From positions 186,001-250,000 of the forward strand of contig JADZEX010000020.1 in the NCBI GenBank assembly GCA_020850355.1: a stretch of DNA of 64,000 nt, given 5' to 3'. The DNA comes from Fimbriimonadaceae bacterium (GTDB lineage Bacteria > Armatimonadota > UBA10988). Shown here piece after piece: positions 1,492 through 5,383 of the stretch (its first letter is position 1; each line of letters begins with the position of its first letter). Position numbers and translations under genes: made by a program. The notes beneath the pieces are model-generated. The model searched no databases. It was not told the origin of the DNA and worked only from the letters and a program-made list of their open reading frames with translations.

Positions 1492-1509
1492 CGGCCGCCA
1501 CTGCACGGC
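1492..1509 (+). repeat. Left copy of 18-bp direct repeat CGGCCGCCACTGCACGGC flanking the ATPase/nuclease cassette
   Basis: Exact 18-bp match to 3500-3517, same orientation, read directly from the sequence. Confidence 0.9.
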
Positions 1510-1548: not shown

Positions 1549-2943
1549 ATGCGTATCCTGCTCTCCAATCTCGGGTTGCTGCCCCACGCCGAGCTCCGCT
1601 TGGCTCCATTGACCATCATCTGCGGCGACAACAACAGCGGAAAGACCTACGCCACGTACGCAATCCACGGCCTCTTCAGCTACCTGCATGAGACCCATGA
1701 GCTCCCTGTCGACGACCTCGTGATCGACACACTGCTACGGGCCGGGACCGCGCACGTACCGCTGGGTCCCTATCTGGAAAAGGCCCAGGCTCACATGACC
1801 GCCGCCTGCGCTTCCTTCAGTCGGCGCCTGGCCGCGGTGTTTGCTGCTCGTGAGGAGCACTTTCGGGGTGCGGCTGTCGAGGTTCTGCTCGAAGATGGCG
1901 ACCTCCAGATCCCACCTTCCTACCGCCGCGGCCTCTCCTCGGCCTCGGCGGAGGTCTTCACAATCTCCAAGGAGCCAGCCGATGACCATCTTGTGCTGAC
2001 GCTGCTCGGCGAGGGAGACCGCCCGCCACTGCCTCGCGAGGTGCTGCAACACCTGATCGGCGAGGGACTTTGCCAAGTCCTCTTCGGGGCACTCTTCCCG
2101 CGGCCCTTTGTGGTGACTGCCGAGCGCACCGGGATCGCCGTCTTCCGTAAGGAGCTCAACTTCCCGCGCAACCGACTGATAGAAGAACTCGCCGACACTA
2201 ATAAGGAGGTCGATATGTTCGACCTCCTCACTAAGGTCTACACAGACTACGCCATGCCGGTCAAGCACAATGTTGAGTTCACCCGAAACCTGGCTGCTGT
2301 CTCAAAGGACTCCAGCTTCATCGCCACGCAGCACAGCGGGATTCTCGATGCCTTCTCGACCATCATCGGTGGCAGGTACCAGGTGACGCCGGACGACCAG
2401 GTCGTCTTCCGTCCGGCAGCCCAGCCCAAGCTGCTGCTGACGATGGACGAAAGCTCCAGTGCGGTCCGCTCTTGCCTGGCGCTACGGTTCTACTTGCATC
2501 ACGTGGCGCGGGTCGGCGACCTGCTGATCCTCGACGAGCCGGAGCTGAGTCTGCACCCGCGCAACCAGGTCCTGATGGCCCGCCTGCTGGTACGATTGCT
2601 GCATGTCGGCCTGCGGATCATGATCACGACGCACAGCGACTACCTGATCCGCGAGCTGAACACGATGATCCTAATCCAGTCGGGCGGGGATCGCGGCGAG
2701 GCCATTGCGACGCAGCACGGCTACCAGCCGGAGGAGCGTCTACGGCCGGAGGAGGTCGCGCTCTATTCGGCCAGGCAGTCGCAAGTGAAGCGGCCCGGCT
2801 ACAAGAACCGAAGGTCGGTACCCACTTTGGTCCGGGCGCCGATTACCGCCGACCGCGGCATCGCAGCCGACACCTTTGACGACACGATTGAGGGCCTGAA
2901 CAACATCCAGGACGAACTGATCTGGGAGGGGTTCGGTGGATGA
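1549..2943 (+). CDS. ABC/OLD-type AAA family ATPase (AAA_15-like, no TOPRIM domain seen)
   Basis: Walker A GDNNSGKT; signature-like DESSSAVRSCLALRFY; Walker B/D-loop LLILDEPELSLHPRNQ; switch His TTHSDYLIREL. Confidence 0.85.
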   Translation: MRILLSNLGLLPHAELRLAPLTIICGDNNSGKTYATYAIHGLFSYLHETHELPVDDLVIDTLLRAGTAHVPLGPYLEKAQAHMTAACASFSRRLAAVFAAREEHFRGAAVEVLLEDGDLQIPPSYRRGLSSASAEVFTISKEPADDHLVLTLLGEGDRPPLPREVLQHLIGEGLCQVLFGALFPRPFVVTAERTGIAVFRKELNFPRNRLIEELADTNKEVDMFDLLTKVYTDYAMPVKHNVEFTRNLAAVSKDSSFIATQHSGILDAFSTIIGGRYQVTPDDQVVFRPAAQPKLLLTMDESSSAVRSCLALRFYLHHVARVGDLLILDEPELSLHPRNQVLMARLLVRLLHVGLRIMITTHSDYLIRELNTMILIQSGGDRGEAIATQHGYQPEERLRPEEVALYSARQSQVKRPGYKNRRSVPTLVRAPITADRGIAADTFDDTIEGLNNIQDELIWEGFGG

Positions 2944-3481
2944 CCTCGAGGTTCTCGACGAGCTGATCCGATCCACTGCGGTGGTCACAGTGTCTTCGGC
3001 CACGCGGCGACTCACTCTGTCAGAGCCGTCGCAGCCAGGCTGCACCATCGAGGTGCTTGGCGTGGACGACGGCGCAGTCTGTTTTCGCGCGGATGCCTTC
3101 CCCGATCCTGGTGCCATCTTCTCAGGCGCGAACGGCTGCTGCTGCCGCAGCGACTTCATTCTGTTTGTTGCCCACAAAGACCAGCTCTATGTGGTCTGCA
3201 TCGAGATCAAGAGCACCTCTGACAAGGCTGAGCACATCCAGCAGCAGCTTCGCGGCGCAGCTTGCCTGGTGGAGTACACCCAAGCCGTTGGACGACACTT
3301 CTGGTCACAGCCGGACTTCCTCAAGGGCATCCGAATGCGGTTTGTATGCATCGCCCAAACGAGCCTTAACCAGCGCCGACCAGTCATCGACCGGCCGAAG
3401 GGGAGGCATGACCGGCCCGACCGTCCGCTGCGGGTTTCCGCCGCGAAGGAGGTCGAACTGAAGAGGCTCCTGCACGGCTGA
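2936..3481 (+). CDS. Small protein with PD-(D/E)xK nuclease-like motif, translationally coupled to the ATPase
   Basis: GTG start overlaps the 3' end of the ATPase gene; CCCRSD73-x16-E90-I-K92 followed by a Q-rich helix (AEHIQQQLRGAACLVEY). Confidence 0.6.
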   Translation: MDDLEVLDELIRSTAVVTVSSATRRLTLSEPSQPGCTIEVLGVDDGAVCFRADAFPDPGAIFSGANGCCCRSDFILFVAHKDQLYVVCIEIKSTSDKAEHIQQQLRGAACLVEYTQAVGRHFWSQPDFLKGIRMRFVCIAQTSLNQRRPVIDRPKGRHDRPDRPLRVSAAKEVELKRLLHG

Positions 3482-3496: not shown

Positions 3497-5383
3497 CTAC
3501 GGCCGCCACTGCACGGCCACCGCTTCGCCTGCCGGCAGGTTCAGGCCGGTCGGATCGCAGCGGGTCGCCGGGCCGAAGAGCAGCTTCGGCGCGGCGAGTT
3601 GCCAGGGCAGCTCAACCGGCTGGGTGGTGCCGTTGGCGAGCAGCATCAACGCCTCGTCGCCGCGGCGCCAGGCGCGGGCGGCGACGCCGGGCGGGAGTTG
3701 GCCGAGACCGGTGGGCGGCGCCGGCTCGACCGACAGCAGCAGCGGGGTGAGTGCCTTGACCTCGCCGATCACGGCGGTGACGTCGGGCCAGCGGCGGTCG
3801 AAGCCGAGCGGGTCGCGGCGGAGGTCGCCGAAGCTGTAGCAGATCAGCCCCTGGGCCCCGGCGGCCAGGCAGGCGTAGAGCATCGTACGCATCTCGCCGC
3901 GGGTCGGCGCGCGGCCTTGGGCCTTCTCGGCTGCGGTCGTCTTGTAGACCGCCCAGTCGAAGACCTGCGGCACCTGCCAGACACTGCCCTGCCCAGCCAT
4001 CGCCGCGACCGTCTGGCTGGTCCAGTCCTGGGCCATCGACAGCGGCCTGGTCGGCACCGGGTACGGGTCGGTGCCCAGGATGTCGGTTGTGTCGACGTAG
4101 CCGGCCAGCTCGCCGACCTGGTAGAGCACGACCCAGGCTGGGTGGTTGGGGTCGCCGTCGACCACCTGGCGGTACCGCTTGACCAGCTCGGCGTGGTACT
4201 CCAGCGACAGCTCATCGTTGACGTACCAGGCCAGCAGCGCCGGATGCTCGCGGAACTCGCGCACCACGCCGGCGGTGATGTCAGCGACGTCGGTCCACGG
4301 GCCGACCTGCTTCGGGCGCCAGGTGGTGCCGTCGTAGAGGTCCTTGACCGAAGCGATCACCCGCAGCCCGGCCGCCTGGGCGGCGTCGAGGTAGCCCCGA
4401 GTGCGCTGCAGGTCGGGACCGAGCAGGCCGTAAGGCATCAAGCAGTTGAAGCCGGCGGCGGCGATCAGCTTGAGGTCGGCGGGCGAGGCGAAGCCGTCGT
4501 AGATCCCCAGCGGCAGCACCGGTTCGCCGTTGACGATCGTCCGGCCATGCTCGTCGAGGTAGACCGACGGCCGCGGCGCGGCGGGATCGACGATGGTCAG
4601 GTCGGCGCTGCTGCTGGCCAGCTCCCGCTCGCCCTGGCGCAGGCTGGTGCGGACCTGGTAGGGGCCGGCGGCCAGGCCGGTCGTCGGCACCGCCAGCCGC
4701 CCCCGGCGCTGGTTGAGGCTCAGCGGACGCTGCCAGACTTCCCGCTCGCCCTGCCGCAGTGCGACGGTGACGGCCAGCTCGGCCAACGGCGGGTCGCCGG
4801 CCAGGCGGTCGGCCACTACCGCCTCGGCGGTAGCAGGCTGCCCGGCGGTCAGGCGGCCGCGGTAACGGGGACCGTGCAGCGCCGTGCGCAGCGGTGGGTC
4901 CAGCAGTTCGGCCACCTCCAGGTCGTCGAACCAGGCCACGCCGGTCATCTCGCGCCGCAGGTAGAGCGCGATGCTGGTGCGCTGGGCGTCGGGTCGGATG
5001 CCGACGCTGCCGCGGATCTGCTGCCAGTCGTGAGTGCCCTTGACCCCCGCCGGGTAGTGGCCGCCGAGGTAGCGGGTGCCCTCGTACAGCTCCAGGCAGA
5101 TGGTCGCCCCGGTGTCGCTGCCGGCGACGTCGGCGGTCTTGACCCAGACGCTGAAACCGTAGCGCCGGCCCGGCTGCAACGGCAGGTTGAGGGTCGCCAG
5201 CGGATAGGCCGCGGCGTCCCGGTTCTCGAGGCGCAGGCAGCCGGGTGAGGTGCGGCCACCCGTGGCGACCCAGCGCACCTGGGTCGGCAGACTCCAGCCG
5301 GCGGCGCCAGCGTCGAAGCCTGGGTTCGGCACCAGGTTATCAGGCGCGCCGAGGGTCAGCAGGCAGAGCATCCAGAGCATCAT
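3497..5383 (-). CDS. Secreted TIM-barrel glycoside-hydrolase-like protein with N-terminal CBM-like domain
   Basis: Signal-like N-terminus; NLVPNPGFDAGAAGWSL (CBM_4_9-like start); later VNGEPVLPLGIYDGF...AAGFNCLMPYG barrel-type sequence. Confidence 0.65.
   Translation of the reverse strand: MMLWMLCLLTLGAPDNLVPNPGFDAGAAGWSLPTQVRWVATGGRTSPGCLRLENRDAAAYPLATLNLPLQPGRRYGFSVWVKTADVAGSDTGATICLELYEGTRYLGGHYPAGVKGTHDWQQIRGSVGIRPDAQRTSIALYLRREMTGVAWFDDLEVAELLDPPLRTALHGPRYRGRLTAGQPATAEAVVADRLAGDPPLAELAVTVALRQGEREVWQRPLSLNQRRGRLAVPTTGLAAGPYQVRTSLRQGERELASSSADLTIVDPAAPRPSVYLDEHGRTIVNGEPVLPLGIYDGFASPADLKLIAAAGFNCLMPYGLLGPDLQRTRGYLDAAQAAGLRVIASVKDLYDGTTWRPKQVGPWTDVADITAGVVREFREHPALLAWYVNDELSLEYHAELVKRYRQVVDGDPNHPAWVVLYQVGELAGYVDTTDILGTDPYPVPTRPLSMAQDWTSQTVAAMAGQGSVWQVPQVFDWAVYKTTAAEKAQGRAPTRGEMRTMLYACLAAGAQGLICYSFGDLRRDPLGFDRRWPDVTAVIGEVKALTPLLLSVEPAPPTGLGQLPPGVAARAWRRGDEALMLLANGTTQPVELPWQLAAPKLLFGPATRCDPTGLNLPAGEAVAVQWRP
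3500..3517 (+). repeat. Right copy of 18-bp direct repeat CGGCCGCCACTGCACGGC
   Basis: Exact match to 1492-1509; lies within the last codons (AVQWRP) of the minus-strand gene 3497-5383. Confidence 0.9.

Follow-up and report, generated by a model that had tools for sequence, protein, structure and literature searches.

The two overlapping genes described here, from a contig of a Fimbriimonadaceae bacterium, most likely belong to the PDC-M47 branch of two-gene systems, which is sister to PD-T4-4 and related to WonAB, and their relatives suggest that they probably form a defence pair. They lie within a stretch of 64,000 nucleotides that was analysed as a whole and is called the window below. A sequence-only reading of this DNA had proposed an OLD/ABC-type ATPase with a small PD-(D/E)xK-like protein in trans, and the family matches agree with that description; the probable defence role that it proposed is likewise backed by the PDC-M47 match and by the relatives PD-T4-4 and WonAB. 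The novelty that it claimed fails, because both proteins match PDC-M47A and PDC-M47B from end to end, so that the module is a catalogued one and not "undescribed" (a match to a named system is what the reading itself had listed as a refutation), and because the supposedly "different combination" of an ATPase with a short PD-(D/E)xK effector in trans is already known from a prediction of 2020, from PD-T4-4 in 2022 and from WonAB in 2025. The pair adds no new kind of system and is an ordinary further member of a catalogued family. What it does is to extend a recently recognised defence class, an ATPase sensor with a small nuclease effector, to a phylum where this class is rare.

The family assignment comes from comparison with the PADLOC profiles. 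Gene 1 matched PDC-M47A over positions 1 to 459 of 461 (E 1.3e-161, 536.6 bits) and gene 2 matched PDC-M47B over positions 1 to 183 of 186 (E 4.7e-46, 154.8 bits), and the genes are adjacent and in A-B order, as in PDC-M47, with the same order in nine homologous loci. The second-best match of gene 1 was PD-T4-4_A (E 6.5e-134, 445.6 bits), while gene 2 gave a weak partial match to PD-T4-4_B (best 26 bits). Comparing the gene 2 family with PD-T4-4_B by hhalign gave a probability of 95.8 and an E of 7e-9, and the D...[ED]xK...Q cores of the two were matched to each other. In a tree of 27 ATPase sequences, gene 1 was placed inside a clade of 13 rows (support 100/99) whose other members come from Desulfobacterota, Pseudomonadota, a cyanobacterial plasmid and Bacteroidota, and this clade stands apart from the one that holds the PD-T4-4-scoring copies on E. 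coli and Klebsiella plasmids. The ATPase is about 40-45% and the effector about 25-34% identical to its closest homologues. The PDC systems are unpublished candidates of Payne et al. (PMC11811056; PMC12988326), and in a literature search we found no paper that names PDC-M47 and no published test of it.

The coordinates of the genes, of their motifs and of a repeat that brackets them are collected in Table 1. Both genes are on the plus strand, and the overlap that the earlier reading had noted is 8 nt long. The scans for promoters and terminators gave nothing exceeding chance. The Walker A, Walker B and switch histidine motifs of gene 1 are intact, each was located at its residues, and they are invariant or nearly so among the 13-17 homologues aligned. 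Pfam matched AAA_15/AAA_21 and found no TOPRIM in gene 1, in agreement with what had been claimed; where a TOPRIM would be, there is a conserved C-terminal extension with G437, F443, D444 and N451. A fold search with the model of gene 1 gave PtuA as the best PDB match, with resemblance also to SMC1 and Rad50.

Table 1. Features of the gene pair and its borders; positions are those of the window.
Feature	Position	Strand	Description
Gene 1	1549-2943	+	ATG start, 464 aa; OLD-type ABC ATPase, PDC-M47A
Walker A, gene 1			GDNNSGKT, residues 26-33, K32
Walker B, gene 1			LLILDEPELSLHP, D329, E330
Switch His (H-loop), gene 1			H362, within TTHSDY
Gene 2	2936-3481	+	GTG start, 181 aa; predicted PD-(D/E)xK-like effector, PDC-M47B
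D73 codon, gene 2	3152..3154	+	Putative first acid of the active site, where strand 74-80 starts; from sequence, alignment and model
E90-I91-K92 codons, gene 2	3203..3211	+	End of strand 83-91; from sequence, alignment and model
Key residues, gene 2			D73, E90, K92, Q104; also E30, D53
Direct repeat, left copy	1492..1509	+	18 bp, CGGCCGCCACTGCACGGC
Direct repeat, right copy	3500..3517	+	18 bp, within the final codons (VQWRP) of minus-strand gene 3497-5383

In gene 2 the acids and the lysine of the proposed active site do sit at residues 73, 90 and 92, but their spacing, on which the PD-(D/E)xK claim had relied, is by itself weak: D-x(10-20)-[DE]-x-K was present in 39% of shuffled copies of the gene and in 85 of the 284 ORFs that are comparable to it in length. 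The motif becomes meaningful because it is conserved across homologues. In an alignment of 18 homologues with a mean column identity of 27%, no columns other than D73 and K92 are invariant; position 90 holds E or D in 18 of 18, and Q104 and D53 come close to invariance. The alignment pinpoints the residues to mutate. An AF2 model of gene 2, predicted from alignment rows of the window and the related loci only, had a mean pLDDT of 86.6 and a pTM of 0.85. Its topology, taken from the DSSP string, shows two strands, 74-80 and 83-91, which a tight turn joins and which helix 98-122 follows. Gene 2 therefore has the PD-(D/E)xK feature of a conserved D and an (E/D)xK on neighbouring strands with a helix after them, and in the model D73 would face E90 and K92 across a single hairpin and Q104 would lie on the next helix, in what appears to be the layout of a PD-(D/E)xK core.

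Searches for a known fold or family gave less. The best Foldseek match of gene 2 to the PDB had an E of 0.03 and a TM of about 0.25, and none was significant; BsmI, FokI, BsaWI, AddB and Holliday resolvases were near the top, interspersed with unrelated proteins. A viral fold search was weak as well, its non-significant matches including several PD-(D/E)XK and VRR-NUC proteins. No family for gene 2 was found in Pfam, NCBIfam or PHROGs, and a profile of the 18 homologues had no match among PDB sequences. Because the motif geometry fits and the Foldseek matches are non-significant, we consider a restriction-endonuclease-like fold of gene 2 to be probable from the model, though not proved.

That the pair is of a PDC-M47-type family and works by a sensor-plus-nuclease logic is, in our judgement, very probable. 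Genes 1 and 2 would form a translationally coupled anti-phage module, in which gene 1 would dimerise on ATP and act as sensor and gate, and the nuclease would dock on the C-terminal extension of gene 1. An infection cue may then shift the state of the ATPase, so that gene 2 would be released or licensed, and gene 2, as a putative metal-dependent nuclease acting via D73, E90 and K92, would abort the infection, most likely by cutting RNA needed for translation and less likely by cutting DNA. We propose that gene 1 would sense and gene 2 would cut RNA from what is published on WonAB and from the conserved C-terminal extension of gene 1. In the WonAB system of V. cholerae (Adams et al. 2025) both genes are needed for defence, and protection is lost in WonA ATPase-site mutants and in a WonB K71 mutant; the toxicity of WonB leaves genomic DNA intact and stops translation, rRNA or tRNA is the target suggested by the authors, and in their model WonB sits where the C-terminal extensions of WonA dimerise (PMC12137116). 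By analogy, the C-terminal extension of gene 1 could be a WonA-like docking site, and for RNA as the substrate of gene 2 we see about an even chance.

Cleavage of DNA by gene 2 is a serious rival, which we hold possible but tentative. Here the ATPase would load on foreign or replicating DNA and license its PD-(D/E)xK partner to cut phage DNA, or all DNA, in a restriction-like manner. DNA nucleases commonly have a PD-(D/E)xK core in which ExK is followed by a conserved Q, and gene 2 appears to have such a core; many DNA enzymes, the five kinds named above, are also among its weak fold matches, and the model of the ATPase has a likeness to PtuA, SMC1 and Rad50. However, those fold matches of gene 2 are non-significant and do not tell DNA from RNA targets, and it was translation that WonB blocked, not the integrity of the genome (PMC12137116).

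The two genes proved to be co-conserved. The pool consisted of 17 loci with gene 1 relatives from a scan of a genome collection, of plasmid loci and of same-phylum loci. At nine independent loci besides the window a gene 2 homologue (single-sequence phmmer, E 2e-17 or better) lies directly downstream with an overlap of 1-19 nt, and these loci span four phyla, Desulfobacterota, Pseudomonadota, Cyanobacteriota and Bacteroidota. Nearly all the remaining gene 1 homologues are followed by a small ORF in which D...[ED]xK can be aligned; none was found at loci L019, L043, L045, L047 and L052, and at L021 the ORF downstream is cut short. At two of the nine loci, from Bacteroidetes and Limnothrix (L022:325-1721 and L023:3970-5366), the ATPase is split at a similar place into two slightly overlapping ORFs with gene 2 intact; frameshift errors or decay could explain this, as could a genuine split. 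In viral contigs, single-sequence scans with either protein and a search with the gene 2 alignment found nothing, and a search with the gene 1 alignment found 17 loci. In E. coli and Klebsiella (L031, L033 and L034), plasmids of 4.3-4.8 kb with a Rop-family gene have a PD-T4-4-like pair as their main cargo.

Carriage of relatives as the main cargo of such small plasmids, together with the coupled two-gene operon, would also fit a toxin-antitoxin or plasmid-stabilisation system, in which gene 1 restrains gene 2 and the loss of gene 1 kills the cell. We think this quite unlikely: gene 1 is first in order and encodes much the larger protein, and the toxicity of WonB requires WonA, by which the authors exclude simple sequestration (PMC12137116).

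In the window the pair is a low-GC insert of 2 kb with a signature of horizontal transfer. Its GC content is 62% against 71-72% in the flanks, and in 20 of 23 loci the GC content of the pair is under that of both flanks. Of 291 genomes of the phylum, 4 have the gene, the window genome among them, and it was found in none of three genomes of the same family, two of which are incomplete. The 18-bp direct repeat has two exact copies only in the 6.67-Mb genome, bracketing the pair, and this suggests an insertion scar. As a general feature of the family the repeat was rejected: none of the other 22 loci has a comparable one, and we therefore read it as the mark of one insertion and not as a family trait. 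An empty insertion site was not recovered; in the genomes of the same family, the best homologues of the flanking genes are on different contigs. Because a direct repeat unique to this locus hints at it, one may also imagine a mobile bare 2-kb cassette without a recombinase of its own, moving by site-specific or homology-driven insertion, and a PDC-M47 that is a functionally distinct branch with an effector target unlike that of WonB and PD-T4-4, but we consider this combined idea rather unlikely.

The defence role had also been argued from accessory context, and no such context was seen among the neighbours tested in the window. These encode a phosphoesterase/HAD protein, SpoIIM, a zinc ribbon, a histidine kinase and a VIT/VWA protein; they are not defence genes, and a defence island around the pair was rejected. 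The defence reading therefore rests on family membership, that is on relatives, PD-T4-4 and WonAB, that protect bacteria from phages (PMC9519451; PMC12137116), and from these we infer a defence phenotype in the Fimbriimonadaceae bacterium. Around the homologues the picture is mixed. At L014:75-6153 the pair follows an SNF2-type helicase and a type IIG restriction-methyltransferase, in what is a probable defence island, while several further pairs have housekeeping genes around them. In Candidatus Thiosymbion oneisti (L015:6604-11380) the pair, low in GC, is inserted into a housekeeping cluster, with a TonB/TolA-like gene on one side and tolB on the other. A neighbour of the pair of a Mariprofundaceae member (L018:2023-3597) matches the PADLOC candidate PDC-M51A (E 8e-36).

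A neighbourhood that is not one of defence, and ATPase motifs common to UvrA, Rad50 and SMC proteins, might instead indicate a housekeeping pair for nucleic-acid repair, a RecF/Rad50-like ATPase with a nuclease and no defence role. This is highly improbable given the patchy spread in the phylum and the family described above, the low GC content of the pair relative to both flanks at most loci, the occurrence of relatives on plasmids and viral contigs, and the selection of PD-T4-4 for phage resistance (PMC9519451).

Among known systems, the pair is closest to PDC-M47 (PADLOC-DB v2), which both proteins match over their full length and in the same order; we found no defining difference, and the close homologue at L015 likewise scores as PDC-M47B over its full length. 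PD-T4-4 was obtained by Vassallo et al. (2022) from an anti-T4 selection in E. coli (PMC9519451), and its PD-(D/E)xK domain is listed in PMC10952713. It shares the two-gene order of an AAA_15 ATPase and a PD-(D/E)xK-type partner, but the window ATPase is in a separate clade and scores higher with PDC-M47A (536.6 versus 445.6), the ATPase of a plasmid PD-T4-4 copy is about 25% identical to gene 1, and gene 2 is not in the PD-T4-4_B family by score (26 bits versus 154.8 bits for PDC-M47B); its homology to PD-T4-4_B is remote. WonAB, like the pair, has an OLD-type ABC ATPase with a C-terminal extension and no TOPRIM, and directly downstream it has a small PD-(D/E)xK-variant nuclease, which gene 2 is predicted to be as well. 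WonB is about 16 kDa with K71, whereas gene 2 encodes 181 aa with K92, and WonA has K34/E300/H333 where gene 1 has K32/E330/H362. The kinship rests on what that paper states about the family, and the likeness is one of description and not of alignment (PMC12137116); a candidate for an essential lysine in gene 2 is K92, which is invariant and suitably placed in the model. An OLD-ABC ATPase with a novel REase was predicted in silico by Krishnan et al. (2020), and as later papers describe it (PMC12137116, PMC12409358) the architecture is that found here.

Septu PtuAB, PARIS AriAB and Gabija GajAB, against which the sequence-only reading had set the pair, have a related OLD/ABC ATPase domain. Their effectors are an HNH protein in Septu (PtuB), a TOPRIM protein in PARIS (AriB), and a TOPRIM within GajA together with the helicase GajB in Gabija. 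Neither HNH, TOPRIM or helicase in gene 2 nor TOPRIM in gene 1 gave a match in Pfam or the PADLOC profiles, and the models of these three systems match gene 1 chiefly along its ATPase core and give no match to gene 2.
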